This document shows, piece after piece, positions 23,872-42,401 of a stretch of DNA of 57,366 nucleotides. This DNA comes from Bacteroidetes bacterium GWF2_33_38 (GTDB lineage: Bacteria > Bacteroidota > Bacteroidia > Bacteroidales > GWF2-33-38): assembly GCA_001769505.1 (NCBI GenBank), contig MEOF01000059.1, positions 1-57,366 on the forward strand. The letters run 5' to 3'. Numbering within the stretch: position 1 is the first letter of the stretch; each line of letters starts with the position of its first letter. The notes beneath the pieces were generated by a model that was given only the letters and a program-made list of their open reading frames with translations, had not been told where the DNA came from and did no database searches. A program made the position numbers and the translations under genes.

Positions 23872-25185
23872 TTACAATTGTAAAATTCTTTCAGCGAGTT
23901 TTTTAACACTATTTCTACGAGAATATATCTCAATATTATTTAATGACTGTTCTACTCTCCTATATTTATTAAATTCTTTTTCAATTTTTTTCAATTCCTC
24001 AAAAAGCTGCTCACTATCTTTAACAACATCCCCTGCTCTCAACTTGTCAATTAAAACCTCTTGTTCCTTTTCGAACATAAGAGCAGATTTATCATTGTAA
24101 TAAGGATAAGACTTGTACTTCTCAGATTTCTCTTCACTATAACACAATAATATCTTCCTATTAATAGCAATATAATCAAAGATTTTTGTTCCAATTAGAT
24201 TATAATCATTAAAAAGTAAAAAAACATTATTTTCTGCTAAACTTTTAAACAATTCTCTATTAGTAGTCTTATTAAAAAAACGAACTTTATTTGCTAGATG
24301 CACGCACTCTTTCTGGACAAATACTTTCACTTCATCCTCCTTATTAATTCCATAAAAATTTAAATAAGCCGTTCCTCCTTCACATATAAATTTATCAATT
24401 GTTTTTAAAACGCTTTTGTATGAATGCCAACCATATATTGTTCCAATATATGCAAAATTTAATTCTTCATTATTTTGATCAATCTTTGATACATCATCCA
24501 AAAAATTTGCATCATATCCATTAGGAACTAATATTATTTCTTTTTTAATAAGCTCTGAGATTTTCTTTTTTGTAAACTCTGAAACGGTTGAAATTAAAGA
24601 AGTATTTTTAGTAAATTTTTTCTCAAAGTAATGATTCCAATATCTAAGAAATAGATTTTTGCTTCGGGAACGACTTTGTGTCCAAGGGTCTCTATAATCT
24701 GCAATCCATTTGATATTATACTTACTGCTCAATTTTGAAGCATATTTAAACAGTATATGTGGCGAGCCTGTTGCTATAATATAATCAATTTTATTATCAA
24801 TAATATATTTCTCAGCAGCTTTATATAATTCAGACTTTGTTCCATTAATAAATATGAATTGTGAAAACTCGTAGTATGCTGTTATTAATTTTCTTACAGT
24901 CTTAAACTTATTTTCTCCGTATTTGATTAAGATTTTATTTGCTAAGTTAGGAATATATGGTGTTCTTATAATCACACCTTTATCTGTTTGCTCAATCAAA
25001 ATCTCATTAGATTCACTAGAAACAACATAGTCTAAACTATTTCCATAATTATTTCCCCATTGACGTGTGACTATAATTGGGTATAAACCATATTCTTTAA
25101 AATAATTATACCAACCCAAAGGTCTAAGACCTCCAACTGAAATATAAGGAGGAAAATCATATGCTAAAATCAAAACCTGTTTCAT
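23872..25185 (-). CDS. GT4-like glycosyltransferase, sister of the one at 41073
   Basis: 437 residues, GT-B fold. It starts with LILAYDFPPYISVGGLRP, the glycine-rich loop of GT4 enzymes, then WIADYRDPW in the N-terminal domain, VPNGYDANF and FAYIGTIYGWHS in the donor domain, and KIFDYIAINRKILLC as the nucleotide-sugar region (the EX7E motif is diverged). It shares the start motif, TRQWGN, NLANK-like and KIFDYxAINR segments with the 442-residue gene at 41073, so the two are clear paralogs within the locus. It overlaps the upstream amidotransferase gene by 4 bp (ATGA), implying translational coupling. Confidence 0.8.
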   Translation of the reverse strand: MKQVLILAYDFPPYISVGGLRPLGWYNYFKEYGLYPIIVTRQWGNNYGNSLDYVVSSESNEILIEQTDKGVIIRTPYIPNLANKILIKYGENKFKTVRKLITAYYEFSQFIFINGTKSELYKAAEKYIIDNKIDYIIATGSPHILFKYASKLSSKYNIKWIADYRDPWTQSRSRSKNLFLRYWNHYFEKKFTKNTSLISTVSEFTKKKISELIKKEIILVPNGYDANFLDDVSKIDQNNEELNFAYIGTIYGWHSYKSVLKTIDKFICEGGTAYLNFYGINKEDEVKVFVQKECVHLANKVRFFNKTTNRELFKSLAENNVFLLFNDYNLIGTKIFDYIAINRKILLCYSEEKSEKYKSYPYYNDKSALMFEKEQEVLIDKLRAGDVVKDSEQLFEELKKIEKEFNKYRRVEQSLNNIEIYSRRNSVKKLAERILQL

Positions 25186-26309
25186 GAATTATCGCCTTTT
25201 TTCTTATAAAACTTTAGATATGTTCTATATATAAAGCCAAGAAATTTTTTATTATTTGGATAATCTCGGTACCACTTTGGAGGAGTGTGCATTATATCTT
25301 CAAATATTTCTTTTGTTATGCCTAATTTTTTAATTAGAAATTCTTTTTCTTTCTCAATATCAACATTAGCATATGGTGTTTTTTTCAATTCTTCAATCGC
25401 GTATTCACGAGTCATTTCCCCAGCACAAATCTGAGTTGAAAAAGTTGCTTTACGATAGTCAATATCAAATTTCACAGGAAGAATATACGATTGAACAAAT
25501 CCTGTAAACTTGGATTCATAGTGTTTTCCTCCATAATATTTCCATTCTAATTCTTCTTCGAGGAGTTTCATTGCATCTTCTTTAGAGAAAGGAACATAAT
25601 TTAAAATGTATATAATTTTTATTCCTTTGACTATCTTATAATAGATTTCTTGAATGAAACCAAAGGTTGGAAAATTTTTCAATTTCATTTTCCCAAACTG
25701 TTTATGAATGGAGTTAATATATTTTACATCTTTTGCGTCATAATGCCATATTTTAGGTAAAATGCCTTCTGTTGCGAAATTTCCTCCGCTTATTACATAT
25801 TTTACATTATATTTTGCTGCAATTTTATGGAGTGATGCCGGAATTGCAATATCAGTTGGGGTTTCCATTTCCGGAATAGATGCTTTTAAAAAAGAAAGTT
25901 GTAAATCTTTAAACTCATGCCAATCTAAGACGTAACTTTCGTAATCAAACTCCAACTTATTTGCTATGTTTTTAATATTTTTTACAGCCGCTTCAGAATT
26001 CCAGCCATTATCCATATGAACTAATAAAGATCTTAACCCTAATTGTTTAGCAATATAAGCAGTATAACAACTATCAATTCCGCCACTAATTCCTATAACA
26101 CAATCATATTTTTTAGATTTGCCTTTTTGTTTAATTTTTTTGATTAATTGATCTAACTTTTTATTTGTTTCTTCACCAATATAAACCCTTTTAGCGGTTT
26201 TTTCTAAAAATTCTGAACAATGATTACAAAATCCATTTTCATCAAAATAAATATCGGGATCGGTAGTATCCATTACACATCTAATACATTGTTTATACTC
26301 TTGTCCCAT
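25182..26309 (-). CDS. N-acetyl sugar amidotransferase, WbpG/WbuX family (copy 1)
   Basis: 375 residues. The N-terminus has two CxxC pairs (Cys8/11, Cys28/31), probable zinc site, and an ATP-pyrophosphatase loop SGGIDS at 75-80. In P. aeruginosa, WbpG with HisH2 and HisF2 turns a sugar N-acetyl group into an acetamidino group, the HisH/HisF-like pair delivering ammonia. Here no HisF/HisH is directly adjacent: the gene is followed by a GT4 gene (4-bp overlap) and preceded by a candidate promoter. A second family member lies at 28449. Family assignment is strong; the sugar is unknown. Confidence 0.85.
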   Translation of the reverse strand: MGQEYKQCIRCVMDTTDPDIYFDENGFCNHCSEFLEKTAKRVYIGEETNKKLDQLIKKIKQKGKSKKYDCVIGISGGIDSCYTAYIAKQLGLRSLLVHMDNGWNSEAAVKNIKNIANKLEFDYESYVLDWHEFKDLQLSFLKASIPEMETPTDIAIPASLHKIAAKYNVKYVISGGNFATEGILPKIWHYDAKDVKYINSIHKQFGKMKLKNFPTFGFIQEIYYKIVKGIKIIYILNYVPFSKEDAMKLLEEELEWKYYGGKHYESKFTGFVQSYILPVKFDIDYRKATFSTQICAGEMTREYAIEELKKTPYANVDIEKEKEFLIKKLGITKEIFEDIMHTPPKWYRDYPNNKKFLGFIYRTYLKFYKKKGDNS

Positions 26310-26341
26310 CTATTCAATCATATATTTTTACTAAAAAAATT

Positions 26342-26349
26342 CAAAAGTA
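26342..26349 (-). promoter_or_regulatory. -7 promoter element (TACTTTTG) inside the polysaccharide locus
   Basis: The minus strand reads TACTTTTG, matching TAnnTTTG, about 33 bp before the start of the amidotransferase gene at 26309, in one of the larger gaps (70 bp) of the operon. No good -33 element is seen. It could be an internal promoter. Confidence 0.4.
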
Positions 26350-26379
26350 AATTTAAGAATTTATTTACATTAAATAATA

Positions 26380-27219
26380 TTAACCAAATTTAAAATTACT
26401 TACCAAAGATCTTTTTGTAAAAATCCTTATCCCCCATTTTCGTATATAATCTCTAAAATCGTCTGTTTCTACGCCCTCTTCCCCCCAAAAATCTAATGTC
26501 TCAAAATTTACAAAAAATTTATTGTTTACTGAAACTATCGGATAGTTAATATTAATAACAGGAGAAAGTTCGTGGTAATTTGCAATTTTTAAATATTCTT
26601 CTACAATATGTTTTGTTTTTTCTATCTTCTCTCCTAAGTTCAAAGGAATAATTTTTTTTATAAATCGTGCTGGATTTCCCGCATATACCCCATGTTCAAT
26701 AAGATTTTTTGTTACGGTTGAATTTGCTCCAACTACAATTTTATCAGCAATTTCCACACCCATCATTAAAGTAGTTCTATATCCGACTACGACTCCATTC
26801 CCAATTTTTATTCCAGCAAATTTTGCAGGATATCCCTCAAGTACATTTAACCAAAATCCGTGTGTTATAAGAGAAACATCTTCAGATAAAGCAACATCAT
26901 TTCCGACCTCAACAGGTTCACAAACATTTATAAAATCATTGTTACAGAATGTACACCTATCGCCAACGGTAAGATTTGCATTCGGGTGTTGTCTTCCGCC
27001 ACCTCCAACTCTCAATCCAGATGAACAATAAAAGTCAGTTCCAATTTTAATATTATTCCCTCTCATTTCAATATTTGAGCCTAAATAGCCTCTATCGCCA
27101 ATTGAAAAAAGACCTTTGACCGAGATATTAATATTATTACCAAAATTTACATTTTCGCCTATTTCTAATTTCTCGGCAACGATTCGTATATTTTTGTTTT
27201 TTTCTTCAAATATTTCCAT
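26380..27219 (-). CDS. Hexapeptide-repeat (left-handed beta-helix) acyltransferase with C-terminal extension
   Basis: 279 residues. Isoleucine-patch hexapeptide repeats run from about 15 to 185: VNFGNNINI, IGDRGYLGSNIEM, VGDRCTFCNN, then ITHGFW with the catalytic His, IGNGVVVGYRTTL, VVGANSTVTKNL and the closing YAGNPARFIKK. The family transfers acetyl or other acyl groups from CoA to sugar hydroxyl or amino groups. About 90 further residues follow the usual end and are not typical of the short acetyltransferases; their role is unknown. The gene sits between a GT4 gene and the first WbuX-like gene in the operon. Confidence 0.82.
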   Translation of the reverse strand: MEIFEEKNKNIRIVAEKLEIGENVNFGNNINISVKGLFSIGDRGYLGSNIEMRGNNIKIGTDFYCSSGLRVGGGGRQHPNANLTVGDRCTFCNNDFINVCEPVEVGNDVALSEDVSLITHGFWLNVLEGYPAKFAGIKIGNGVVVGYRTTLMMGVEIADKIVVGANSTVTKNLIEHGVYAGNPARFIKKIIPLNLGEKIEKTKHIVEEYLKIANYHELSPVININYPIVSVNNKFFVNFETLDFWGEEGVETDDFRDYIRKWGIRIFTKRSLVSNFKFG

Positions 27220-27256
27220 ATAAGGTAATTTTTTGATTCTGGAATCGTAAATATTT

Positions 27257-28435: not shown

Positions 28436-28448
28436 AAGTAATGTTTTT

Positions 28449-29573
28449 TTACATTTTTTTCCAAAATTTGATAGTCCTTTTTATTTTGCTTAAAAATAGT
28501 AAATATTTAACAATTGATGGATATTTCAAATGACTGATTTGTTTTTGTTTAAGATATTCATCAAATTGGTCTGAGCTAAAGCCTAATTTTTTTAAAACAT
28601 ATTCTTTGTCTTGTTTTTTGAGCAGTTCTGAAGCGTACAAAGGTTCTTGCATTAAAACTAAAGCTTGAGCTCTAGTCATTTGATTTGCACAGATTAATGT
28701 GGAATAGTGAGACTTTCTCTTATCAACATTAAATTTTTCGGGTAATATATATGCCTGATAAAATCGAGTAAATACAGATTCGTAGTGCTTCCCTCCGTAA
28801 TCTTTCCAATAAAATTCTTTTTTAATTAGCTCTTTTGCTTCTGTTTTGACATAATTAACGTAATTTAGAATATCAATACTTTTTATGCCATATATTTTAT
28901 CTTTCAATATTCTGTATAAGTATCCTTGAATAGGATATGTTTTCATTTTCATAGAACCATATCGTTTATGAATTGCTTTAATGTTTAAACTATCTAACTT
29001 CATAAAAACCCATGGTTTCGGCAATCGACCTTCGGTAGTAATGCTGGTACCTGATAAAATAAATTTAATATTTTCTTTAATGGCTACTTTTCTTAATACT
29101 GAGCTAATAGCATGATCCGAAATAGCCTCAATATCAATAACATTTGCTTTAAAATATGATTTCTGTATATCTCTAAATTCCGCCCAATTAATAACGTATG
29201 TGTATAAGTCATATTTGGTTTTTTTCAAAATGTTTTTAATATTTATAGCCGAGATTTCCGAATTCCATCCGTTATCGATGTGAACTGCCAATATTCTTAA
29301 ATTATATTGATAACATAAATATGCAACATAAGTACTATCGACACCTCCGCTTAATCCAATTATTGCGTCGTACTTTTTTCCTTTTCCTTTTTCTTTAATT
29401 TCGAATATAATACGATTAAACATTTTTAATTCAGAATCATTTCCATAATAATATTTTAAAATATTGGCATCATAAATATTACAGTATGTGCATACTCCTT
29501 TTTCGTCGAATGTAATTTCGGGGTCATCATTTGAATCAAGAATACATTTTGCACATGTTTTTATTTTTGTCAT
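28449..29573 (-). CDS. N-acetyl sugar amidotransferase, WbpG/WbuX family (copy 2)
   Basis: 374 residues, a paralog of the protein at 25182 with the same layout: CxxC pairs Cys7/10 and Cys28/31, ATP-pyrophosphatase loop SGGVDS at 75-80, and the shared KDYGGKHYES and CANQMTRA segments. This copy is the intact one: it overlaps the HisF-like gene by 4 bp (ATGA), which in turn is 5 bp from the HisH-like gene, reproducing the WbuX-WbuZ-WbuY set that makes acetamidino sugars. The predicted reaction is ATP-dependent amidation of an N-acetyl group on a nucleotide- or lipid-linked sugar with ammonia from the HisH subunit. Confidence 0.87.
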   Translation of the reverse strand: MTKIKTCAKCILDSNDDPEITFDEKGVCTYCNIYDANILKYYYGNDSELKMFNRIIFEIKEKGKGKKYDAIIGLSGGVDSTYVAYLCYQYNLRILAVHIDNGWNSEISAINIKNILKKTKYDLYTYVINWAEFRDIQKSYFKANVIDIEAISDHAISSVLRKVAIKENIKFILSGTSITTEGRLPKPWVFMKLDSLNIKAIHKRYGSMKMKTYPIQGYLYRILKDKIYGIKSIDILNYVNYVKTEAKELIKKEFYWKDYGGKHYESVFTRFYQAYILPEKFNVDKRKSHYSTLICANQMTRAQALVLMQEPLYASELLKKQDKEYVLKKLGFSSDQFDEYLKQKQISHLKYPSIVKYLLFLSKIKRTIKFWKKM

Positions 29574-30322
29574 CTTTCTAGTCCCATTTTATCGAAATCG
29601 TCGTTGTCAAAATAATTTATTAATATTCCCTTTTTTTTGGTATAATAAACAAAAAGGCTTCCAGCTGCACATGCATTAACACCATATCGAAACGCCGTTT
29701 CGATGTCGTTGTTATCTCTACATCCTCCAGCAATTACGATTGGGTTTTTAACATTCTTTCTAATCTCTTCTAGTAAAGTTAAATCGTAACCCGAATAGGT
29801 TCCATCTCTATCAATTGATTGAATTATTATTTCGCCAACATTAAGTGTTAATATAGCCGAAATAACATTTAGAATGTTTTTTCGGCTATTTTTTGTTCCA
29901 TTTTTGAAATAAACAATGGGAATTTCATTTACATTTTTGTAATCAATGCAGACACTGATAGTAGAAGTTCCAAACTTTTTTACGGCTTCTGATACAAATT
30001 CGACATCATTTATGGCTGAATTAATGCACACTTTTTCAATTCCTATCTTTAATAAATTTTCAATTTTGTTAAGACTATTTACGCTCCCTCCATATGATAT
30101 TGGTATAAAACACTCTGATGTTACTTCTTTTAAAAAATCGTAATCTAGGTCGCTTTTTTGATGTGCAGTAATATCGAAAAGCATTAATTCATCTGCCCCA
30201 AATTCATTAAATATTTTAACGGCATTTATGACGTCTCCAATATATCTATGTTTTGAAAATTGGATTGATTTTACTAACTCTCGGTTCTTAATTGTTAATA
30301 TAGGGATGATTCTATTAAGCAT
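29570..30322 (-). CDS. HisF-like ammonia-channel subunit (WbuZ type, copy 1)
   Basis: 250 residues, a (beta/alpha)8 barrel of the HisF family: RYIGDVINAVKIFNE, ELMLFDITAHQ, IISYGGSVN-type phosphate loop, VCIDYKN, IIIQSIDRDGTYSGYD and VIAGGCRD. In histidine HisF, Asp11 in the first strand is an essential acid/base residue; here the strand reads IIPILTIKN and the position is Thr. The equivalent of Asp130 is kept (CIDYK). So it is unlikely to make imidazole glycerol phosphate and more likely guides ammonia to the amidotransferase. It overlaps that gene by 4 bp. Confidence 0.87.
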   Translation of the reverse strand: MLNRIIPILTIKNRELVKSIQFSKHRYIGDVINAVKIFNEFGADELMLFDITAHQKSDLDYDFLKEVTSECFIPISYGGSVNSLNKIENLLKIGIEKVCINSAINDVEFVSEAVKKFGTSTISVCIDYKNVNEIPIVYFKNGTKNSRKNILNVISAILTLNVGEIIIQSIDRDGTYSGYDLTLLEEIRKNVKNPIVIAGGCRDNNDIETAFRYGVNACAAGSLFVYYTKKKGILINYFDNDDFDKMGLER

Positions 30323-30327
30323 ATGTT

Positions 30328-30927
30328 TTACATTTCACAAAATTTTCGAAAAAGATTTTTTCCATAATTGTGACTTTTTTCTGGATGAAATTGCACTCCA
30401 AAAATATTTTCTTTTTGAAACGCAGCACAATAGTCTATCCCTACATTTGCAATTGCTATAGACTCTTTTGTCTCTTTTGGGAAATAATAACTATGTGCAA
30501 AATAATATCGTTGTTTTTCTTGAAAAATTAACGTATTTGGCTTAATATTTTCAATATAGTTCCATCCCATTACAGGAATGCTTGTCGTACAGCTTTCTTT
30601 TTCGAATTGTTTTACAGTTGCATCTATCCAACCAAAACCCGTCTGTTCTCCCTCTTCGCTATTATTTGCCATTAATTGCATCCCCAAACAAATTCCTAAA
30701 ATAGGAGTTTTATCAATGAGTACTTTTTTTTCAATTAACTCAAATAAATTCAATTTTTTTAAGTTATTAATTCCATTATCATATGCACCAACACCCGATA
30801 AGATTAATTTAGATGCAAGACTAATATCTTTAATGTTATTCGATATTAATGCTTCGTGTCCAATGTTGGCTATAATATTTTTAATAGCCAACATATTACC
30901 TATTTTATAATCAATTATCACAATCAT
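30328..30927 (-). CDS. HisH-like glutamine amidotransferase (WbuY type, copy 1)
   Basis: 199 residues from the ATG at 30927 (MIVIIDYKIGN); an in-frame ATG 18 bp upstream is less typical. Class I glutaminase triad visible: nucleophile Cys80 in GICLGMQ, and His181 with Glu183 in QFHPEKSH. It hydrolyses glutamine to ammonia, which passes through the HisF-like barrel to the WbuX-like enzyme. The gene order HisH, HisF, WbuX is contiguous here. It is not part of a histidine operon; no other his gene is in the window. Confidence 0.87.
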   Translation of the reverse strand: MIVIIDYKIGNMLAIKNIIANIGHEALISNNIKDISLASKLILSGVGAYDNGINNLKKLNLFELIEKKVLIDKTPILGICLGMQLMANNSEEGEQTGFGWIDATVKQFEKESCTTSIPVMGWNYIENIKPNTLIFQEKQRYYFAHSYYFPKETKESIAIANVGIDYCAAFQKENIFGVQFHPEKSHNYGKNLFRKFCEM

Positions 30928-30977
30928 AAACGTTTCTTTTTTCAATTACAGAAAGATATAGAATTACGATTTAAGGC

Positions 30978-31616
30978 TTAAAAATCGATAACTAATCTAA
31001 TAACTTCAAATGCCTCTGCATAATTGCACCCTATTTGCAATCCTCTTGTTTGTGCTTGTGAATAAATAAGGTTTTCTTTTACATATTCTTTCGTGGACTG
31101 TGTTTTATATTCTTTAATTGCGTTGCATTTTTGTTGAACATGATGTTGTTTAAGTTTAACAAAAGACGTGGTGTCAAAAGTTAAATTGTTCCAAATCAAT
31201 TCATAGCCTAAAATAGTTTTATCTTTAAATGCCCTTAATCCTTCGTTTGCAATTGTTGAATGGTCTTGATGAATATCATGTAAACTCGGCATTAAAATGA
31301 TATCGGGATTAATATCTTTTTTCAATTGAACCATTTTTTCAAGAATGTCTTGTCTGAAAAAGTTAAGTTTACGAACTTCGAAATCGAATATTATAAGATT
31401 TTCAGGTTTTATTCCCAAAACACGTGTTGCTCTTTTTACTTCAATTGCTAGCGTCCCTTTAGAAAATTCTTTTGGCAACGACTGATCTGCCGTAGAAAAA
31501 GCGACATAATAAACCTCTGATCCTTCTTCAATAAACCTAGCAATGCTTCCTCCTGCTCCTATTTCGCCATCATCTGTATGAGGGGCTAAAACGATTATTT
31601 TTTTATTTCTAATCAT
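30978..31616 (-). CDS. PIG-L/LmbE family deacetylase
   Basis: 212 residues. The zinc-site motif APHTDDGEIG (His13, Asp15/16) is the family's APHPDDE variant, with a second metal-ligand region SLHDIHQDHST around 110-118. These enzymes remove the N-acetyl group from GlcNAc-type sugars on lipid, thiol or nucleotide carriers. There is no signal peptide. It lies 50 bp before the HisH-like gene and 58 bp after asnB; a free amine made here could feed later amidino or acyl transfer. The exact substrate is unknown. Confidence 0.83.
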   Translation of the reverse strand: MIRNKKIIVLAPHTDDGEIGAGGSIARFIEEGSEVYYVAFSTADQSLPKEFSKGTLAIEVKRATRVLGIKPENLIIFDFEVRKLNFFRQDILEKMVQLKKDINPDIILMPSLHDIHQDHSTIANEGLRAFKDKTILGYELIWNNLTFDTTSFVKLKQHHVQQKCNAIKEYKTQSTKEYVKENLIYSQAQTRGLQIGCNYAEAFEVIRLVIDF

Positions 31617-31634
31617 GTTTTTATCTTTCTACTA

Positions 31635-31642
31635 CAAATTTA
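31635..31642 (-). promoter_or_regulatory. -7 promoter element (TAAATTTG) before the PIG-L gene
   Basis: The minus strand reads TAAATTTG, matching TAnnTTTG, 19 bp before the PIG-L start, in the 58-bp gap after asnB. No -33 element is seen at 19-21 bp. It may serve as an internal promoter for the HisH-HisF-WbuX group. Confidence 0.4.
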
Positions 31643-31674
31643 CGAAATAATCTCCAAAAAATATTATTAGATAA

Positions 31675-33503: not shown

Positions 33504-34613
33504 TTATGTTGTAATTTTGGTGCCTACGAGATTGAAACCGCTTAAATTATCAATATCCGTTAACACTAAATCTGTAAATTTTTGTTCTTTAAACCAACTT
33601 TCAACTTCTTCAATGCTTTGTTTATGGGCATAGGGTGGAGCCAAAGCATCAAAAATACTTGTAGCTCTTTCTTTTATTGTCTGTGTATGTTTTACATGTC
33701 TGACGACTGAATTAATTTTATAAAAAATATGAAAAAAAAGACTATATGAAAAAATTATGGCGTACAAAAAACTAGGATTTAACGTAGTTGTGTATTTTCT
33801 AATTTTTGAGCCTTTGATTATAAATTTTTTGTGATTAATAAAAGGGAGCAATGGCAAACTTATGTCTTCACTTCCAAGCCTATATAACCAAACGCCTAGC
33901 TTTCCATTCTTCTTAACAAATTCAGATGTTTTTGAGAATGCTTTTTTTGTATTTGGGGTGTGATGAAGAACTCCAGAGGCATGAATATAGTCAAAAAAAT
34001 CATTTTTAAAGGGTAATTTCATCAAATCTGCTTGTATAAAATAACAATTGTATTTTTGGTCTTTAATAAAGCCTATTGCTTTTTCAATTCCAGGTGCCAA
34101 ATCAACGCCAATAAATGTGCCTTTAAGTTCTTTTGCTAAAGTTGATGTAAGTTGTCCAGTTCCAGCTCCCAAATCAAGAAATAACTTTTCTTCATATGAT
34201 TTTTCAAATAGTTGCATATACTCTCGATACTTTAATGTTCTTTCATCTTGGTTTAGCCCCCACGTCTTATTTGAAGTTGAGTGCTTTTCCCATTCTTTTT
34301 GAAATCTAACAAGAGTGGGGAGAATGTTTTTTTTAAACTCGTATGAAGGTTGATTAATAATTGGGTTGATATTTATTTCTTTTAATTCTTTCTCAAAAGT
34401 TTTAAATTTATTTTTATAAAAATCCCAAGAGCCATCAAAAACTCTTGGGATTTGATTGATAATAGGATAAATGATTCCTTGACTGGAAAATAAAACGCCT
34501 GTTTTAATAATTGTTCTATCAAAACTATCGGAATATGATTCTAAAATTTTAAGGGTCAATTTCTCTTTTGATTTTGGACAAATCAAATTATTTAAGAATT
34601 CAAGATGGTTCAT
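33504..34613 (-). CDS. SAM-dependent methyltransferase with Trm112-like N-terminus
   Basis: 369 residues. An N-terminal Trm112p-like stretch (FLNNLICPKSKEKL... SSQGIIYPIINQIPRVF) is followed by a class I methyltransferase core: LDLGAGTGQLTSTLA (SAM-binding motif I, around 142-155), IGVDLAPG and FDYIHASGVLHHTPNTKKAF. The C-terminal region includes a hydrophobic stretch (FLYAIIFSYSLFFHIFY) that may rest on the membrane. Methyl acceptor unknown: a sugar hydroxyl is the obvious candidate. It overlaps the upstream GT4 gene by 14 bp and precedes asnB by 5 bp. Confidence 0.8.
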   Translation of the reverse strand: MNHLEFLNNLICPKSKEKLTLKILESYSDSFDRTIIKTGVLFSSQGIIYPIINQIPRVFDGSWDFYKNKFKTFEKELKEININPIINQPSYEFKKNILPTLVRFQKEWEKHSTSNKTWGLNQDERTLKYREYMQLFEKSYEEKLFLDLGAGTGQLTSTLAKELKGTFIGVDLAPGIEKAIGFIKDQKYNCYFIQADLMKLPFKNDFFDYIHASGVLHHTPNTKKAFSKTSEFVKKNGKLGVWLYRLGSEDISLPLLPFINHKKFIIKGSKIRKYTTTLNPSFLYAIIFSYSLFFHIFYKINSVVRHVKHTQTIKERATSIFDALAPPYAHKQSIEEVESWFKEQKFTDLVLTDIDNLSGFNLVGTKITT

Positions 34614-35769
34614 TTATAATTTTTTTGAATAAAATATATGAGTTTCTGATGCTGTGATTTTTTTCCACTGTATTTCGTCCATTTATGCCAATATTTTTTC
34701 TTAGTTTTTCATTTTCAGATAACAATATTAACAAATCAATCCATTCTTGTTCGGAAGTTGCAAAATAAATATTTTCCATATTAACGGCATAAGGAGTAAT
34801 CCCAATAGGTGTTGCAATGCATGGTAGTCCAGAAGACATATAATCTAAAACTTTCATTGCCATTTTACCTCGCATTTCGTCGTTGTCCTCTACGGCATAA
34901 ATTCCAATGTCAGAATTCGCCATAATTTCAAAAAATGTGGACTCATCAAAATCGTGATATTCAATATCAATTCCATGTATTAAATATCTAGCTCTTGATA
35001 CAATAATGAGCTTAAAGTTAATAAAATCGTTCAATCTTTTTAAAATGTTTTTCATAACATTTAAGAAATGCTCAACATTTCCTGGCAGTCCAGTATAAAA
35101 AAGGGTAATTTTACCTTTTGTTGAATAGCTCGATTTTACTTTGTATTTGCTAAAGTCAATTCCTATTGGAAAAATAATTTTTTTTGTCGAAAATTTATCA
35201 AAATACTCTTTTATATAATTGTTGACAACGCTTATTTTATCGCAATTTTCTGTCGTTATTTTTAACAATTTTGAATTACTATGACACCATACCGAATCCC
35301 AAAAATCAATTGTAATATTTGAATTTAATCTCCGGAGTAGTTTTTCTAAACTAGCATTTTTATAATCAGGGTAATAAGGAAAAAGTCCTCTTTGAACGAA
35401 TGCGGACTTGTAATTTTTTGCTTTTAAAATTTGACATATTCGTTTCCAAATAATTTGTTGATACAAAAAATAATGACTTGATTTATTTTTTGAAAGTTCT
35501 TTTAAAATATAAGATTCTGAAAATATATCACATACGTAATATTTAATATTATCTTTTTCTAAATATTCAAAATAGCATGAAATTCTTACGGTGTAACCAT
35601 TGCTTCCTTTTTGAGCATAAGGAAAAATAATTAAATCGTATTTTTTCTTTTTTGGTATTAAGAAACTGAATATTGTCAAAATAGAAATTGAAAAATATGC
35701 CAACCCAATTGAGAGTTTCATAAATATGTATACTGCTCTTTCGGAGTTTTTGTATATAATATTTTTCAA
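34600..35769 (-). CDS. GT4-like glycosyltransferase with N-terminal hydrophobic anchor
   Basis: 389 residues. A hydrophobic segment near the start (FSISILTIFSFLI) may anchor it to the membrane. GT-B features: TIDFWDSVW, IIFPIGIDF, ITLFYTGLPGNVEH in the donor domain, and the acidic DIGIYAVEDNDEMRGKMAMKVLDYMSSGLPCIATPIG near residues 290-325, where the conserved E-x7-E is partly replaced (D/M positions). It follows the GDP-mannose epimerase-like gene by 11 bp and overlaps the methyltransferase gene. Confidence 0.77.
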   Translation of the reverse strand: MKNIIYKNSERAVYIFMKLSIGLAYFSISILTIFSFLIPKKKKYDLIIFPYAQKGSNGYTVRISCYFEYLEKDNIKYYVCDIFSESYILKELSKNKSSHYFLYQQIIWKRICQILKAKNYKSAFVQRGLFPYYPDYKNASLEKLLRRLNSNITIDFWDSVWCHSNSKLLKITTENCDKISVVNNYIKEYFDKFSTKKIIFPIGIDFSKYKVKSSYSTKGKITLFYTGLPGNVEHFLNVMKNILKRLNDFINFKLIIVSRARYLIHGIDIEYHDFDESTFFEIMANSDIGIYAVEDNDEMRGKMAMKVLDYMSSGLPCIATPIGITPYAVNMENIYFATSEQEWIDLLILLSENEKLRKNIGINGRNTVEKNHSIRNSYILFKKIINEPS

Positions 35770-35780
35770 AATAAAACTTA

Positions 35781-36749
35781 TTATATGGTTTTATTTTTTA
35801 TTTGTTCGAGAATCCAATTATATGTGATTTCCATTCCTTTCAATAGAGGCCAATTTGGTTTCCAGTATAATTTTGATTCGATTAATTTATTATCCGAGTT
35901 TCTTCCTCTAACCCCAAGAGGCCCTGAAATATTATTTATGGTTAAATTCTTACCTGAAATATTAATTGTCATTTGTGCTAAATCATTGATGCTTATCATT
36001 TCGTCGGATCCAATGTTAACTGGTCCCGTGAAGTCGGAATTCATTAATCGACGAACTCCTTCTAAGCACTCGTCAATGTACAAAAATGAACGAGTTTGTT
36101 TTCCATCTCCCCATACTTCTATTTCTCCTCCGTTAACAGCTTCTGCAACTTTACGACACATCGCTGCAGGAGCTTTTTCTTTTCCTCCAGTCCATGTTCC
36201 TTTGGGACCGAATATATTATGAAACCGAGCTATTCGGACATTCAATTTGTAATTTCGACTAAAGGACAAAAACAATCTCTCACTAAATAATTTTTCCCAA
36301 CCATATTCGCTATCAGGTTGTGCTGGATATGCAGAATCCTCTGCACAGTTTGGACTTTCGGGGTCAAGTTGGTTAAACTCTGGATAAATACACGCTGACG
36401 ATGAATAAAAAATTTTTCCAATTTTATGTTTTACTGCCCGTTCAACAATATTTATGTTAATTAGAGCAGAATTGTGCATTACATTTGCATCGTTTTCTCC
36501 AGTAAAAATATAGCCAGCTCCTCCCATATCAGCGGCCAATTGGTAAACTTCGTCAAAATATTGATTTAAAACAATATCGCATATTTTTTGTTCTCTTAAA
36601 TCGCCAATAATAAATTCATCTGCCTCAGTTTTGCTATACTCTGGATACTTTAAATCAGAACCTTTAACCCAAAAACCTTCGTGCTTTAATTTTTTAACCA
36701 AATGTGAGCCGATAAAACCTCCGGCACCTAGTACTAGTGCTTTTTTCAT
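35781..36749 (-). CDS. GDP-mannose 3,5-epimerase-like extended SDR
   Basis: 322 residues from the ATG at 36749; an in-frame ATG at 36794 lies upstream of the promoter element and is rejected. The nucleotide motif GAGGFIGS is at 8-15. Residues known in plant GDP-mannose 3,5-epimerase keep the same spacing: Cys120 in SSSACIYP, Tyr149 and Lys153 in YGWEK, Lys192 in GGKEKAPAA. Other hallmarks are ADMGGAGYI, RFHNIFGP, QTRSF and RGRNSDN. The enzyme converts GDP-D-mannose to GDP-L-galactose (and GDP-L-gulose). It would supply L-galactose or L-gulose to the glycan made here. A related GDP-sugar epimerase is the alternative. It heads a long minus-strand operon. Confidence 0.85.
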   Translation of the reverse strand: MKKALVLGAGGFIGSHLVKKLKHEGFWVKGSDLKYPEYSKTEADEFIIGDLREQKICDIVLNQYFDEVYQLAADMGGAGYIFTGENDANVMHNSALININIVERAVKHKIGKIFYSSSACIYPEFNQLDPESPNCAEDSAYPAQPDSEYGWEKLFSERLFLSFSRNYKLNVRIARFHNIFGPKGTWTGGKEKAPAAMCRKVAEAVNGGEIEVWGDGKQTRSFLYIDECLEGVRRLMNSDFTGPVNIGSDEMISINDLAQMTINISGKNLTINNISGPLGVRGRNSDNKLIESKLYWKPNWPLLKGMEITYNWILEQIKNKTI

Positions 36750-36768
36750 TTTAAAAAGATTTAATATA

Positions 36769-36776
36769 CAAAGATA
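36769..36776 (-). promoter_or_regulatory. -7 element (TATCTTTG) of the 36749-20447 operon
   Basis: The minus strand reads TATCTTTG, a TAnnTTTG match, 19 bp before the epimerase ATG. With the plus-strand element at 36814-36821 it forms a divergent promoter region. No clean -33 TTTG at standard spacing. Confidence 0.55.
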
Positions 36777-36813
36777 TATATTTATTTTCATCAATTTAAT
36801 ACTAAAGTTTTAC

Positions 36814-36821
36814 TAGATTTG
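36814..36821 (+). promoter_or_regulatory. -7 element (TAGATTTG) of the flippase gene
   Basis: TAGATTTG matches TAnnTTTG. Transcription would start around 36828, downstream of the possible TTG start at 36824, so the GTG at 36848 is the likelier start. Confidence 0.5.
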
Positions 36822-36847
36822 CCTTGAAATATATAGTTTTTCAATTA

Positions 36848-38296
36848 GTGAATTCTTTAAAAACTTCCTCTATTAATGCAGCAAAATGGAATTTTTTTGC
36901 CAATATTGGCAGTTATTTCATAAGCTTTTTTTTGTCTATTATTCTAGCAAGGATACTTGAGCCTAAAGAATTTGGAATGACGGGCATGTTAGCCGTTTTT
37001 ATTGCTATTGCTGTCGTATTTATAAATTCAGGGATTTCTGTGGCTATTGTCCGCTCAAAAGATATTACTGAAGACGATTACTCCACGGCTTTCTATTTTA
37101 ATGTTGTAGTTGGATTATTTTTTTATTCTTTATTCTTTATTCTTTCGCCTCTAATTGCTGATTTTTTTAATGAGCCAATTTTAGTTCCGCTTACAAAATT
37201 ATTATCCTTGGTATTTGTTATCAATTCTTTTGGAATAATTCAAAACACAATCCTTATAAAAGAAATAAATTTAAAAAAACAGTCTATCTGTTATTTGCTT
37301 GGGATGCTTGTTTCTGCTATTGTTTCTGCCATTATGGCGTTTAATAATTATGGTGTTTATAGCATTGTTGGACAGTCGATTTCACAAGCATTAACGACAA
37401 ATATATTATTTTGGCTCACCTCAAAATGGAAGCCTAGCGGACGATTCAAATTTAATTCTTTTAGAAAAATATGGTCTTTTGGATCAAAAGTATTAGCAAC
37501 AAATCTTGTTTCTACTTTTGTGGATAATATTGATAATTTTTTAATCGGAAAAATTTTCTATGCTAATCAGTTAGGATATTATGTAAGAGCAAAGAGTTCG
37601 AAAATAATGCCTGAGCAAATATTAACCAACACTTTGCAAGCCACAATATTTCCTATTTTATCAAAAGTTAATGACAATGACAATTTGTTTCTGCAATATC
37701 ATTTAAAATTTTATAATTTAGCAGTATACATTTTTCTTCCGGTTGTTTTTGGATTTATAGCAGTTGCAAAAGCATTTACCATTGTTTTATATACCGAGAA
37801 ATGGTTGCCTTCGGTTCCGTTCTTGCAGATTATTATTTTATCAAGCATCTCTATTTTCCTAAGTGCATTTTTTAATCAAACCATAATGGCTAAAGGCGAA
37901 GGAAATTTATATATGAAACTTAATACTATAAAAAAATTAATTGGTCTATTTTCAATTCCTTTTGGCGTTTTTTGGGGTTTAATTCCATTTTTGTGGGCAT
38001 TTGTATTTATTAGTGTTGTATCTCTTTCCATTGATTATTACTTTGTTTCAAAACTATTGAAAATTTCTATGAAATATTATTTCATAAAGCTTTTTAAACC
38101 CTTAGTTTTATCTATTGCCATGTTTTTATGTGCTTACGCTATTTTATTTTTGCCAATTGCTAATTATTATGTCGTATTTTTAACTCAGATATTTACTGGT
38201 GTTTTTGTTTACATATTTCTGTCATCAATATTTAGAATTGAAGAATTTCTTTATCTAAAGGAAATCGTATTCGGAAAATCGCATCATTTCTTTTAA
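36848..38296 (+). CDS. Wzx/WzxC-type polysaccharide flippase (copy 1)
   Basis: About 482 residues from the GTG at 36848. The alternative TTG start at 36824 sits too close to the promoter element. MOP superfamily: the opening KTSSINAAKWNFFANIGSYFISF, then ILARILEPKEFGMTGM and SGISVAIVRSKDITEDDY, are typical of the WzxC/lipopolysaccharide-flippase group; about 12-14 hydrophobic spans follow, with WSFGSKVLATNLVSTF at mid-length. It would move the lipid-linked repeat unit across the inner membrane. It is the only plus-strand gene inside the locus, divergent from the epimerase-like gene. Confidence 0.87.
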   Translation: MNSLKTSSINAAKWNFFANIGSYFISFFLSIILARILEPKEFGMTGMLAVFIAIAVVFINSGISVAIVRSKDITEDDYSTAFYFNVVVGLFFYSLFFILSPLIADFFNEPILVPLTKLLSLVFVINSFGIIQNTILIKEINLKKQSICYLLGMLVSAIVSAIMAFNNYGVYSIVGQSISQALTTNILFWLTSKWKPSGRFKFNSFRKIWSFGSKVLATNLVSTFVDNIDNFLIGKIFYANQLGYYVRAKSSKIMPEQILTNTLQATIFPILSKVNDNDNLFLQYHLKFYNLAVYIFLPVVFGFIAVAKAFTIVLYTEKWLPSVPFLQIIILSSISIFLSAFFNQTIMAKGEGNLYMKLNTIKKLIGLFSIPFGVFWGLIPFLWAFVFISVVSLSIDYYFVSKLLKISMKYYFIKLFKPLVLSIAMFLCAYAILFLPIANYYVVFLTQIFTGVFVYIFLSSIFRIEEFLYLKEIVFGKSHHFF

Positions 38297-38640: not shown

Positions 38641-39402
38641 TTATAATATATTTAATGTAATTTCCGATTTTTCAGGATAATTTATTAAAACACCCTTGTT
38701 TTTTCCGTGGTAAACAAAAATACTTCCTGCGGCTAGCCCATTTGCAAATCCTTGTATGTATGCTTGTTTTAAATGATTCAAATTTCCTGCACCTCCTAAT
38801 GCAACAATGGGAATTTTAACTGCTTCAGAAATTTGTTTAATTAATTCAATATCATAACCTTCCATCATTCCATCTTTTTCAATTGATTGAATAATAATTT
38901 CACCAGCTCCTTTTTCTTCCATCAATTTAGCAAATTCAACGGGCGAATATCCTGTTGATTTTGTCCCTGAGACGGTCCAAGTTTGAATTTTACCAAACAT
39001 TTTTTTCTTAACATCGATGCAAACAACGATTGTTGAAGACCCAAAGGTTTCGCTTGCTTCTCGAATAAAATCAGGATTATCAACTGCATAAGAATTGATG
39101 ATTACTTTTTCTGCTCCAGCTCCAATTATATCTTGAATATCTTTTTTTGTTCTTATTCCTCCGCCAACAGCAAAGGGCATATTTGCTTCTTCTCCAACAT
39201 TTTTAACAAAGTCTAATGATATTAATCGTTTTTCTTTTGTTGCTGTAATATCTAAAAAAACTAATTCATCGGCTTTTAAATCGTTAAAAATACGAACGGC
39301 ATTAATCGGGTCTCCGATATATCTGTAATTTTTGAATTCTTTAGACTTTACCAAGGATTGTCCACTCAGTAGAAGTATGGGGATTATTCTAGGTCTAAAC
39401 AT
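38641..39402 (-). CDS. HisF-like ammonia-channel subunit (WbuZ type, copy 2)
   Basis: 253 residues, HisF family barrel: RYIGDPINAVRIFND, ELVFLDITATKEKR, PFAVGGGIRT, VVCIDVKK, IIIQSIEKDGMMEGYD, VALGGAGNLNH and GLAAGSIFVY. The first strand reads RIIPILLLSG, so the catalytic Asp11 of histidine HisF is replaced by Leu; Asp130 is retained (CIDVK). This again argues against imidazole glycerol phosphate synthesis. It pairs with the HisH-like gene at 40442, from which it is separated by a methyltransferase gene, and would serve one of the two WbuX-like enzymes. It is the last gene of the right-hand minus-strand operon. Confidence 0.87.
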   Translation of the reverse strand: MFRPRIIPILLLSGQSLVKSKEFKNYRYIGDPINAVRIFNDLKADELVFLDITATKEKRLISLDFVKNVGEEANMPFAVGGGIRTKKDIQDIIGAGAEKVIINSYAVDNPDFIREASETFGSSTIVVCIDVKKKMFGKIQTWTVSGTKSTGYSPVEFAKLMEEKGAGEIIIQSIEKDGMMEGYDIELIKQISEAVKIPIVALGGAGNLNHLKQAYIQGFANGLAAGSIFVYHGKNKGVLINYPEKSEITLNIL

Positions 39403-39407
39403 TTAAT

Positions 39408-40319
39408 TTATATTTTTTTCAACCAAACATACAATTCCATACCTGTGTTTGTCTTTTTCATTAAAGGCTTTAATATTATATCTATAATTTTCGGCATAAA
39501 TGTTTGACAAACTGCATATTCGTGAAAAATAATTTCATAATTTTTTGATGAAGAATTTATTTTAAAAGAATTAAGCGAAAATTCATACAAATGATACGGT
39601 TCGTGCATTGGGCTAATATTGCATACATAATCTTTCATAAGCACTTTATACGTCCAATTTATTAACTTTGCAATTAACCAATTAGAAGAAGGAACTTGGA
39701 TTAGAATTAAGCCATTTGGTTTGAGCCATTCAAGAGCCTTTTTAATTGCATCGGATGGGGAATATAAATGTTCTAAAACTGCATTAAATACGATAAAATC
39801 AAAATAATTGTTTTCGTAATTAGCATCTTCAATTGTAGAAAGGCTTAATTTATCAGGAGAAATATTCATTATTGAAATAGCTTTTTCATAAAATGTATTA
39901 GAAGGTTCAATTCCATAAGAATCAAAGCCTGCATTTTTTAAAGCTTTCATCTCAAAACCAATTCCTGCACCAACATCTAAAGCTTTCATTCCATCCTTAA
40001 AATTGAGCAATTCCTTTGCTTTAATAATTGTTGTAACAAAATAGTTATCTCCCTTTTGAAAATATTCTTCTTCCCAATATTCTTCTGATAATACTCCGTA
40101 ATGGTCTTGTATATCTACTGGAATCGGTAAAGGATTTGAAAAAATTAATCCACAAATTGTACATCTACAAATCGTGGTTGTTATTCCTTTTTTCTTATTT
40201 GGTCTAATACCTTGTGATTTGTTTAATCTCTTTCCTATTACTATATGTTTGTCTTCACTTGAACCACACATATTGCAATTTTCAATTTGACGGAAAGTAT
40301 ATAAAAGATTTTTTTTCAT
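39408..40319 (-). CDS. SAM-dependent methyltransferase with zinc-ribbon-like N-terminus
   Basis: 303 residues. The N-terminus has two CxxC pairs (CNMC near 16-19 and CRCTICG near 54-59), a likely structural zinc site seen in sugar C-methyltransferase and related families. The class I core follows: ALDVGAGIGFEMKAL (motif I), YGIEPS, and FDFIVFNAVLEHLYSPSDAI. The acceptor is unknown; O- or C-methylation of a sugar is the family-level guess. Unusually, it splits the HisF-like and HisH-like genes: 5 bp from the former, a 122-bp gap to the latter. Confidence 0.8.
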   Translation of the reverse strand: MKKNLLYTFRQIENCNMCGSSEDKHIVIGKRLNKSQGIRPNKKKGITTTICRCTICGLIFSNPLPIPVDIQDHYGVLSEEYWEEEYFQKGDNYFVTTIIKAKELLNFKDGMKALDVGAGIGFEMKALKNAGFDSYGIEPSNTFYEKAISIMNISPDKLSLSTIEDANYENNYFDFIVFNAVLEHLYSPSDAIKKALEWLKPNGLILIQVPSSNWLIAKLINWTYKVLMKDYVCNISPMHEPYHLYEFSLNSFKINSSSKNYEIIFHEYAVCQTFMPKIIDIILKPLMKKTNTGMELYVWLKKI

Positions 40320-40441
40320 CTGTTTGCAGTTTTATATATCGTTGACATTTAATCAATTACCCGATTTTAAAATTTTATCATTTTCGATTGGACTGCTTTA
40401 CTTTTTTAATCATAGATATTTCATAATTACTATTTAAAATA

Positions 40442-41062
40442 CTATAACTCAATAAAGTTTTTCAACAATCTTTCCCCATCATCATGACTTTTTTCGGGGT
40501 GATATTGTACTCCAAATATATTATTTTTTTCGATTGCAGATATAAATTTATACTCGTATTCGGTTTCGTTTAAAATATCTTCGTTATTGTTAACTAAAAA
40601 ATGATATGAATGAACAAAGTAAAATTCTGATAAATCAGAAATGTTTTTCATTAATAAACTATCTTTTGTTTTAATAATTTGATTCCAACCCGTATGTGGA
40701 ATCTTATATTTCAAAGTATCTTTAACTATAAATTTAACCACTTCAGCATCAATCCAACCTAATCCATTCGCATTTCCTTCTTCACTTTTATTTGCCATAA
40801 GTTGCATTCCAAGACAAATTCCCAAAATAGGTTTTTGTTTAATAAGTACAATTTCATTTAAAGCATCAATCAAGTTGAGTTTTTGTAAGTTTTCCATTGC
40901 TTTTTGAAAATGTCCAACGCCTGGTAAAATAATTTTATCGGCAGATTCAATTTCATTTGGATTTGATGAAATTATCGGATTAACATTCAGTCGAAGAAGT
41001 TTTTTCTTAACTGAATGTAGGTTTCCCATTCCATAATCTACAATTATGATATTGTTTGGCAT
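40442..41062 (-). CDS. HisH-like glutamine amidotransferase (WbuY type, copy 2)
   Basis: 206 residues. Class I glutaminase triad: Cys83 in GICLGMQ, His188 and Glu190 in QYHPEKSH. The N-terminal IIIVDYGMGNLHSV matches HisH. As with copy 1, it would release ammonia from glutamine for sugar amidation, with the HisF-like protein at 38641 as barrel partner. It starts 10 bp after the GT4 gene at 41073 ends, on the same strand. Confidence 0.87.
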   Translation of the reverse strand: MPNNIIIVDYGMGNLHSVKKKLLRLNVNPIISSNPNEIESADKIILPGVGHFQKAMENLQKLNLIDALNEIVLIKQKPILGICLGMQLMANKSEEGNANGLGWIDAEVVKFIVKDTLKYKIPHTGWNQIIKTKDSLLMKNISDLSEFYFVHSYHFLVNNNEDILNETEYEYKFISAIEKNNIFGVQYHPEKSHDDGERLLKNFIEL

Positions 41063-41072
41063 CGTTCCCTTT

Positions 41073-42401
41073 TTAAGTAATTTTTTTGATGATTTCTGCT
41101 AATTTTTGGGTTTGTATTTTGCGAGAAAATTGCTCAACATTTTGAGAATTACATTGAATATACCCATTCATTTCAAATTCATTTAGCAATTCATTTAACG
41201 TATTTTTTAAGTGTTTGCTATTTTCAATAATTATCCCTCCATTTGTTTGCTCAAGAACATCCTTTTGCAAATATTCGCATTCAGAATCGTAGGGAAAATG
41301 TTTATAGAATTTATTTTTTAATAGAATGGCATCAGCATCATTATTATAACAAAATAATATCATTCTATTAATTGCCAAATAATCAAAAATTTTTGTTCCT
41401 AAATATGAATAATCATTGAATAGTAAAAATAGATTGTTTTTTGCGATTTCTTTTACCAAAATATTATTTGCCATCTTGGGATAAATATTAATATCTGTGA
41501 GGATATTCTTATATTTAGATTCTATAATATCAGTGATATTTGTATTTGATTTGACTCCATAAAAGTTAATTAAAAGTCGTCTGTTGCTATTTTCACTTTT
41601 CAGTCCACTGCATACATTAAGAAAACTTTCGATGGGGTGATAATTATAAATTGTTCCAATAAATGCAATGCACAAATTTTTATTTGTTTGTTTTATTTCT
41701 TTAGTACTTTCGACAATTTCGGGATCAAATCCATTCGTGGTTATTTGAATGTTTTTATTCGAAATAATTGAAGAAATATGATTTTTCAAAGTATCCGAAA
41801 CTGTTGTAACAACTAACGCTTTATTTACCACTCTTTTTTCAAGATACTGATTCAATGACTTGAATATTAATTTATTTTGCATTTGGATATCCTGAGACCA
41901 TAAATCTCGATAATCAGCAATCCAAGGGATGTTGTGTTTTTTGCTTAAAATGTTAGCATATCTAAATAAAATAAAAGGATCTCCGGTTGCAATTATTGCA
42001 TCAACTTTATTCGTCTTTAAATACTTTTTGGCTTCAAGGTATATTTGAGATTTTGGTCCAATTAAAAAAAACCATTGAAAAAATTCATAAAAAGCAGATA
42101 TTATTTTTCTTAAAGTTCTATATTTTGATTCGCCATATTTTATCATTAATCTATTGGCTAAATTAGGAAAGAATGGTGTTTTAATTAGCTCTCCTTGTTC
42201 TGTTTTTTCAAAAATTGTTTTTGAGCTTTCACTTGGTACAATATAATCTAAATGATTGCCATAAGTATTCCCCCATTGGCGAGTTACAACAATAGGATAA
42301 ATGTTATATTCTTTTAAATATTTGTACCAACTATAAGGTCTTAAGCCTCCTACCGAAATATATGGAGGAAAATCATATGCTAGAATTAAGAGTTTTTTCA
42401 T
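41073..42401 (-). CDS. GT4-like glycosyltransferase, sister of the one at 23872
   Basis: 442 residues. Same architecture as the 437-residue gene at 23872: LILAYDFPPYISVGGLRP at the start, TRQWGNTYGNHLDY, WIADYRDLWSQD, TTNGFDPEIV, IAFIGTIYNYHP, and KIFDYLAINRMILF in the C-terminal domain. Both sisters are next to an amidotransferase-related gene (here HisH-like, there WbuX-like), so they may transfer the amidinated sugars. It overlaps the upstream GT4 gene by 4 bp (ATGA). Confidence 0.8.
   Translation of the reverse strand: MKKLLILAYDFPPYISVGGLRPYSWYKYLKEYNIYPIVVTRQWGNTYGNHLDYIVPSESSKTIFEKTEQGELIKTPFFPNLANRLMIKYGESKYRTLRKIISAFYEFFQWFFLIGPKSQIYLEAKKYLKTNKVDAIIATGDPFILFRYANILSKKHNIPWIADYRDLWSQDIQMQNKLIFKSLNQYLEKRVVNKALVVTTVSDTLKNHISSIISNKNIQITTNGFDPEIVESTKEIKQTNKNLCIAFIGTIYNYHPIESFLNVCSGLKSENSNRRLLINFYGVKSNTNITDIIESKYKNILTDINIYPKMANNILVKEIAKNNLFLLFNDYSYLGTKIFDYLAINRMILFCYNNDADAILLKNKFYKHFPYDSECEYLQKDVLEQTNGGIIIENSKHLKNTLNELLNEFEMNGYIQCNSQNVEQFSRKIQTQKLAEIIKKIT

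Follow-up and report, generated by a model that had tools for sequence, protein, structure and literature searches.

Two distantly related sets of putative acetamidino-sugar amidotransferase genes, one of them split, in a sugar locus of Bacteroidetes bacterium GWF2_33_38

Acetamidino sugars give bacterial surface glycans positive charge, and the amidotransferase WbpG has HisH2 and HisF2 as its partners (WbpG-HisH2-HisF2). We analyzed a contig of 57,366 nucleotides (MEOF01000059.1, or C59; hereafter the window) from the 3.93-Mb draft genome of Bacteroidetes bacterium GWF2_33_38 (GCA_001769505.1; 99.12% complete). The window carries genes for two WbuX proteins, two HisF-like barrels, and two HisH proteins. 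WbpG of Pseudomonas aeruginosa O5 (ManNAc3NAmA) and WbuX of Escherichia coli O145 (L-FucNAm) belong to the same family as both WbuX of the window (PMC10607449). Compared with WbpG-HisH2-HisF2 and with WbuX of E. coli O145, the window has two sets, one of which (set S) is split around the other (set C, which is contiguous). We propose that the locus specifies two independent complexes, each a glutamine-dependent N-acetyl-sugar amidotransferase, and we consider this the probable explanation.

The closest protein of known structure is LpNASAT (PDB 8wex). It ranks first in the PDB when the S-set WbuX is compared by sequence, and also when the C-set WbuX is compared by fold, where our model (predicted local distance difference test [pLDDT] of 88) matches it with a template modeling (TM) score of 0.65 and 15% identity; by sequence, it is second for the C-set WbuX, behind a GMP synthase. 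Both WbuX of the window share with LpNASAT the PP-loop (SGGxDS) and the zinc tetracysteine (CxxC...CxxC), as the LpNASAT paper defines these motifs (PMC10607449), so neither copy is short of the motifs typical of the family. The text of that paper mentions neither HisH nor HisF, and the ammonia source of the acetamidino enzyme is little treated in the papers that we consulted.

In our proposal, HisH would hydrolyze glutamine to ammonia, the HisF2 barrel would conduct the ammonia onward instead of cyclizing the phosphoribulosyl-formimino compound of histidine synthesis (PrFAR), and WbuX would use ATP to activate the N-acetyl group, converting acetamido to acetamidino. Most likely, sets S and C amidinate different sugars, or different positions, of one or more surface glycans. 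Set S, an ancestral gene group, is interrupted by a 12.3-kb block, which holds set C and eight other genes. The locus itself is of a known type; what is of interest is that two old, intact sets lie side by side, and that their barrels share a signature residue, Glu98 (discussed below). Such a pair could serve as a probe of what sets the substrate and of whether ammonia partners are exclusive.

All six genes are open reading frames (ORFs) on the - strand, without internal stops, where a sequence-only reading of this DNA had placed them, and family models agree on a pair each of WbuX, HisF-like, and HisH-like genes (Table 1). Both WbuX exceed the curated cut-off of TIGR03573 (203.2 bits), and both HisH exceed that of TIGR01855 (105.4 bits) and have the Cys-His-Glu triad, which is kept in 115 of 115 rows of our HisH alignment. 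The S-set HisF exceeds the cut-off of NF038364 (AglZ/HisF2; 310 bits). Among conserved columns, the S set has no changes in WbuX (0/22), HisF (0/27), or HisH (0/32), and the C set has one in WbuX (1/22) and three each in HisF (3/27) and HisH (3/32); other homologs have up to four. A model of the C-set HisF matches HisF structures (TM score about 0.8); its mean pLDDT was 77 (57.6–77.2 across five models), so we used only its fold. R5, E46, K99, and E167 of Thermotoga HisF, which form the ammonia gate, are intact in both barrels. Judging from these motifs, triads, and gate positions, both sets look functional. As the sequence-only reading had it, set C is contiguous: its WbuX and HisF genes overlap by 4 bases, and HisF and HisH are 5 bases apart.

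Are these HisF and HisH histidine-pathway enzymes instead? Thermotoga maritima HisFH and the window's sets are alike in the HisH triad, the HisF barrel, the gate positions, and K19 and F23 (we use Thermotoga numbering). Unlike the Thermotoga enzyme, both window barrels have lost D11, a catalytic residue of imidazole glycerol phosphate synthase, and have Glu instead of Asp at position 98. D11 is present in all 18 comparators that we took as canonical (of which L226–L229 and L241 are unannotated there, L225 and L238 lack both hisA and hisIE in the fetched stretch, and E. coli supplies two). Both barrels also miss the cut-off for canonical hisF (230.2 bits for set S and 168.8 for set C, versus 294.55). 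A genome search found no canonical HisF at E = 1e-85, no further HisH above the cut-off, and no WbuX outside the window; HisB was not found either, while other histidine genes (HisG, HisD, HisC, etc.) were not searched for. One additional PF00977 match is above the cut-off (50.3 bits), but it is partial and has an internal stop, and another (the genome's fourth) falls under the cut-off. We take the ORF with the additional match to be similar to geranylgeranylglyceryl phosphate synthase, although no family search confirmed this. Because the genome has no HisB that we could find and no other HisF or HisH above the cut-offs save this partial match, and given the scores and the loss of D11, we rejected a role in histidine synthesis.

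We then asked about the ancestry of set S. It is spread over 25182–41062, with 12.3 kb (11 genes) between HisF (38641) and the end of WbuX (26309). The window's gene order begins with GTx-HisH-methyltransferase-HisF, continues with the block (the three genes of set C and eight others), and closes with WbuX-GTx, where GTx is our name for a glycosyltransferase that is present in two copies. For comparison, we searched for WbuX at E = 1e-40 in a class sample of 395 genomes (at most five scored candidates per genome). We used 120 stretches around the best-scoring of the WbuX matches listed, with later additions chosen from HisF matches, and annotated WbuX, HisF, HisH, and GTx in them with profiles built from the window's genes. 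(Labels such as G276 or G214.C10 are our own handles.) The S-set WbuX lies in a clade of 23 rows (FastTree support 99), HisF in a clade of 10 rows (99/99), HisH in a clade of 13 rows (100/95), and both GTx in a clade of 5 rows with those of G276, G389, and G162 (100). The same foreign loci recur across the trees: G159, G276, G389, G091, G005, G214.C10, G289, and G379, joined in some trees by G162, G057, G198, and G070. For ten other rows of the WbuX clade, the fetched stretch shows neither HisF nor HisH. The HisH of G087.C4 is in the S clade, and its WbuX is in another.

Gene order points the same way. HisH-HisF-WbuX are in a row in 8 of the 12 other loci of the S WbuX clade that have HisF or HisH, and three of these 8 have GTx-HisH-HisF-WbuX; GTx precedes HisH in G276, G389, and G162, as it does in the window. 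(G005 has the order WbuX-HisH-HisF, and three of the 12 loci miss one ORF in our scan.) The S-set HisF is 78% identical to the barrel of G389, and a 53% relative of the methyltransferase at 39408 precedes HisH in G214.C10. Distance profiles, scored against 70 contiguous sets (two ambiguous sets were dropped), also agree within set S: 0.88 for WbuX-HisF, 0.56 for WbuX-HisH, and 0.80 for HisF-HisH. Comparative sequence analysis thus shows set S, with both GTx, as one ancestral cognate gene group that has been split here. The sequence-only reading had described the split correctly and had offered a partner swap as one possible meaning; its other suggestion, two amidination steps, is the simplest account of two intact, divergent sets. 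Because the same foreign loci recur in the WbuX, HisF, HisH, and GTx trees, the scattering looks like rearrangement of a cognate set, and we see no sign of a swap within set S.

Table 1. Features of the amidotransferase locus in the window
Feature	Coordinates	Strand	Family or other evidence
WbuX, set S (split set)	25182..26309	-	TIGR03573 283.3 bits; PP-loop SGGIDS and tetracysteine intact
HisF2, set S	38641..39402	-	TIM barrel; NF038364 341.3 bits; D11 to L, E98, gate positions kept
HisH, set S	40442..41062	-	class I glutaminase; TIGR01855 237.8 bits; Cys-His-Glu triad intact
Glycosyltransferase GTx, upstream of HisH	41073..42401	-	5-row clade, support 100
Second GTx copy	23872..25185	-	overlaps S-set WbuX by 4 bases
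Methyltransferase between S-set HisH and HisF	39408..40319	-	Pfam Methyltransf_23
WbuX, set C (contiguous set)	28449..29573	-	TIGR03573 254.7 bits; model matches 8wex, TM 0.65
HisF-like barrel, set C	29570..30322	-	NF038364 265.6 bits (under cut-off); D11 to T, E98, G82S; long branch
HisH, set C	30328..30945	-	TIGR01855 200.6 bits; triad intact; PGVG-loop Pro to Ser
PIG-L type de-N-acetylase adjoining set C	30978..31616	-	Pfam PIG-L
AsnB-type amidotransferase in block	31675..33498	-	TIGR01536 469.7 bits
Methyltransferase 33504, glycosyltransferase 34600, sugar epimerase 35781	33504..36794	-	relatives beside WbuX in G047.C18
Flippase between S-set HisF and rest of block	36824..38296	+	Pfam Polysacc_synt_3, 276 bits

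The sequences also suggest that sets S and C have been separate for a long time. Across four gene pairs, their copies are 43.5–45.1% identical, and the WbuX, HisF, and HisH copies are not sisters in the trees (the two GTx, at 45.1% identity, share their 5-row clade). We therefore rejected a recent tandem duplication. A 174-nt repeat (77% identical) links the starts of the two GTx genes, which can be protein similarity. We looked for insertion scars in the gaps between genes; the best WbuX match in the tested gaps (in that at 40320–40441) had E = 0.005 over 14 residues, which is unconvincing. Neither GC content nor GC at third codon positions (GC3) separates the two sets, and scans for promoters and terminators gave no more matches than in shuffled sequence.

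Do the partners within a set stay together? Among the 70 contiguous sets, the distance profiles are correlated (Mantel r of 0.83, 0.62, and 0.80, each reached by 0 of 999 permutations). The true partner ranked first in 31/70 cases for WbuX-HisF, 18/70 for WbuX-HisH, and 39/70 for HisF-HisH, and the right pairing beat the swapped one in 1792, 1787, and 1857 of 2000 draws, respectively. We also sorted barrels and WbuX into two types, A and B, from the WbuX tree and the quick HisF tree (20 added rows and six plasmid rows were typed A by exclusion). In all 86 cases with a WbuX within 2 kb of the barrel, the two were of the same type (66 A and 20 B); 7 further barrels without a WbuX in that range are outside this count. 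For the window itself, the matched pairing (S-S plus C-C) scores above the swapped pairing for WbuX-HisF (0.853 versus 0.769) and WbuX-HisH (0.882 versus 0.608), while HisF-HisH goes the wrong way (0.33 versus 0.897). So, at the level of sequence comparison, set S is backed by its own profiles and trees, but the pairwise contrast between S and C is not clean.

Several results, mostly concerning the C-set HisF, weigh against two independent complexes. This protein fails the NF038364 cut-off (265.6 versus 310 bits), so we call it HisF2-like and not a member. It has the longest end branch of the HisF tree (1.61), and among 395 genomes sampled from the phylum, of which 23 had matches at E = 1e-45, nothing outside the window was closer to it than 46%. 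In the free tree, it groups with G296, G250, and G274 (69/84), whose WbuX share the 13-row clade of the C-set WbuX (support 95). In a quick tree, it lies at the base of the S clade (95 by the Shimodaira–Hasegawa-like approximate likelihood-ratio test, SH-aLRT); a careful tree keeps it outside that clade. Approximately unbiased (AU) tests do not reject its union with S (p = 0.452), with G013/G208 (p = 0.507), or with a far control (p = 0.482), and because the far control was not rejected, this test has no power here. Its distance profile is closer to that of S-type HisH (0.78) than to that of its own HisH (-0.47), and the C-set WbuX is likewise closer in profile to the S-set HisF (0.71) than to its own HisF (-0.03). 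A common ancestry of the three C-set genes is therefore not shown by these sequences: the three AU tests leave this long branch unplaced. The suggested partner swap, which is not supported for set S, is for set C neither shown nor excluded by the AU tests and profiles. Finally, among the 38 other genomes with at least two WbuX, HisF2 genes are fewer than WbuX genes in 34 (a hand count, on draft genomes). A single HisF/HisH pair may thus supply more than one WbuX, and the window's pairs are maybe not exclusive.

In a rival explanation, the ammonia supply would be shared, so that either HisF/HisH pair served both WbuX, WbuX alone set the substrate, and the second pair were redundant or a matter of dosage. 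As a variant, the C-set HisF may be a diverged S-type barrel that was acquired by partner exchange, as its place in the quick tree and its fit to S-type HisH would suggest. Besides the shortage of HisF2 in multi-WbuX genomes, 44 of 136 WbuX contigs (the window and added loci included) have neither HisF nor HisH. This is an upper bound because the fetched stretches are short, and such shares are rough, since the stretches came from the best-scoring matches listed or from HisF matches. A single ammonia supply may often be shared, or it may be dispensable for some WbuX. In two loci from another class, G793.C1 and G966.C99 (L190–L193), the fetched stretch contains three WbuX, two HisF, and a single HisH, with an AsnB-type gene near the second HisF; a shared or replaced glutaminase is possible there. 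However, the coevolution of the contiguous sets and the unmixed barrel and WbuX types speak against a shared supply, and the careful tree keeps the C-set HisF apart from the S clade, though the AU test does not reject their union. On balance, we think that a shared supply is unlikely.

The sample also shows how common doubling is. At least two WbuX are present in 39 of the 135 WbuX-bearing genomes, including the window's. Of the 38 others, 13 have two or more genes of the HisF2 type (canonical HisF matches were set apart by hand from the HisH-HisF spacing and the score, and a few, such as G298, are uncertain). Five of the 38 carry two HisF/HisH pairs on a single contig, inside a span of about 25 kb. 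Like the window, these loci (G005.C15, G281.C42, G232.C18, G146.C1, and G176.C51) have at least two WbuX as well, but they pair type A with type B (D98), while both of the window's sets are type A. (Type A was assigned by tree for G005 and G281 and by score only for G232, G146, and G176.) Elsewhere in the sampled genomes, we saw no locus that combines two type-A sets and two HisH; G214 and G087 each have two type-A HisF2 (by score), on different contigs. The sequence-only reading's statement that loci of this type usually have one set holds for the majority, but it is common for a genome to have more than one WbuX, and doubled sets recur. Of 393 genomes from the order to which the window belongs, 63 have WbuX at E = 1e-30 and 38 are above the cut-off, and the two matches within the same family are below it. 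The distribution of the locus among relatives is thus patchy.

If set C did not act at all, because it is a degenerating or inactive relic in a fast-turnover locus, its long HisF and HisH branches would be expected. We take the Gly-rich loop around position 82 of HisF to be the first phosphate loop, and the C-set protein has the only Ser there in 120 rows (118 have Gly and one has Ala). Similarly, the C-set HisH is the only one of 115 rows with Ser instead of Pro in the Pro49-Gly50-Val51-Gly52 loop, which is at the glutaminase site and is the destination of the allosteric signal (PMC5808140). But the C-set ORFs are open and overlap or are 5 bases apart, the triad, PP-loop, tetracysteine, and gate positions are intact, and the number of deviations is within the range of other homologs. 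We consider a relic quite improbable.

The block around set C may have a mixed history. The nearest relatives of the C-set WbuX by path are G047.C18 and fused WbuX proteins. G047.C18 also has, near its WbuX, relatives of the epimerase at 35781 (77%), the glycosyltransferase at 34600 (45%), the methyltransferase at 33504 (43%), and AsnB at 31675 (44%); by BLAST, however, the closer of the window's two WbuX to that of G047.C18 is the S-set copy (53%). Relatives of PIG-L at 30978 (52–62%) are found near WbuX in G276 (an S-type locus) first, and also in G151, G003, G041, and G296. AsnB has its best relatives in G162 (45%; also an S-type locus) and in G047.C18, and the glycosyltransferase at 27257 has its best relative in G162. 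Because the best relatives of three of these genes are in S-type loci, the block does not look like a neat foreign cassette.

The PIG-L and AsnB genes adjoin set C and occur near WbuX elsewhere, and an AnsB-type protein of Tannerella forsythia has been proposed to form the acetamidino group of pseudaminic acid (Pse) (PMC6120980), so set C might do related but different chemistry, such as amidination coupled to deacetylation by PIG-L or with AsnB; however, the C-set WbuX is above the family cut-off and keeps the family's motifs, and relatives of PIG-L and AsnB are also beside S-type sets (G276 and G162), so we view this as very improbable.

We return to the residues of the barrels. In 93 barrels, the gate positions are nearly invariant: R5 in 92 (with one gap), E46 in 93, K99 in 90 (the other 3 have R), and E167 in 93. 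D11, which is catalytically essential in HisF (PMC8115485), is absent in each of the 78 type-A rows with a residue at that position. With the gate positions kept and D11 missing, the channel seems to have been kept while the cyclase residue was lost. All 79 type-A rows retain K19 and F23, two ligand contacts of HisFH (PMC8115485), and these barrels may therefore continue to bind a phosphorylated ligand.

Position 98 is Glu in 79/79 type-A barrels, both of the window's included, and Asp in 23/23 type-B barrels (L222–L224 were typed B after their D98 was seen) and in 18/18 of the presumed canonical barrels (bacterial except for one from an archaeon), which makes 41/41 outside type A. In a tree of 120 barrels built without columns 11 and 98, D98 to E98 is a single change, on a branch with support of 99. 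Type-A barrels have a mean identity of 47% and just 19 invariant columns of 249, of which E98 is one, and nine columns, including 98, distinguish type A from the canonical barrels at a level of at least 85%. A single change on a single branch does not prove a cause statistically. The D98E mutant of Thermotoga HisFH is hyperactive and shifts the complex toward its active conformation, as measured with ligand (PMC8115485). Among the papers listed in our search, this one alone uses D98E, and it names neither HisF2 nor acetamidino (the search covered few subscription papers, which gives little weight as to novelty in print). We tentatively suggest that the acetamidino HisF2 clade arose from a histidine-type barrel by loss of D11 and fixation of D98E. 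If E98 acts as it does in the Thermotoga mutant, then these barrels would be pre-activated channels for ammonia, with a glutaminase that does not depend on PrFAR. We regard this idea as possible but doubtful. If it is true, then the hyperactive mutant of the laboratory also arose in nature, when a new pathway was born, and two long-separated versions of it are present in this locus. Either way, Glu98 is a testable link between the HisFH model of allostery and a natural offshoot that seemingly lacks its ligand's chemistry.

Some other genes might bear on the substrates. On other contigs, the genome has two NeuB genes and two nucleotide-sugar dehydrogenases above the cut-offs, so several N-acetylated sugars are possible substrates. 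The NeuB-type synthases are at G000:C45:64609-65316 and G000:C49:56338-57036, and by our own reading one of them is followed by a NeuC-like epimerase. The epimerase at 35781–36794, which has its 77% relative beside WbuX in G047.C18, presumably resembles GDP-mannose 3,5-epimerase, although all its NCBIfam matches are under the cut-offs. The locus has a second flippase (47351–48685, - strand) besides the one at 36824–38296 (+), and two flippases in one locus could mean two glycans instead of one. We also noticed two B12-binding radical SAM proteins within the sugar locus (43648–45126 and 48794–50284).

WbuX is often the C-terminal part of a protein of 590–1025 amino acids (G181.C22, G087.C1, G176.C57, G250.C35, G274.C1, G178.C138, and others), in which 210–650 residues precede it. 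Similarly, HisH is the C-terminal part of a protein of 658–669 amino acids in G250, G274, and G178, and the best match in the window for the fusion proteins of G250 and G274 is the glycosyltransferase at 42398 (29–30%).

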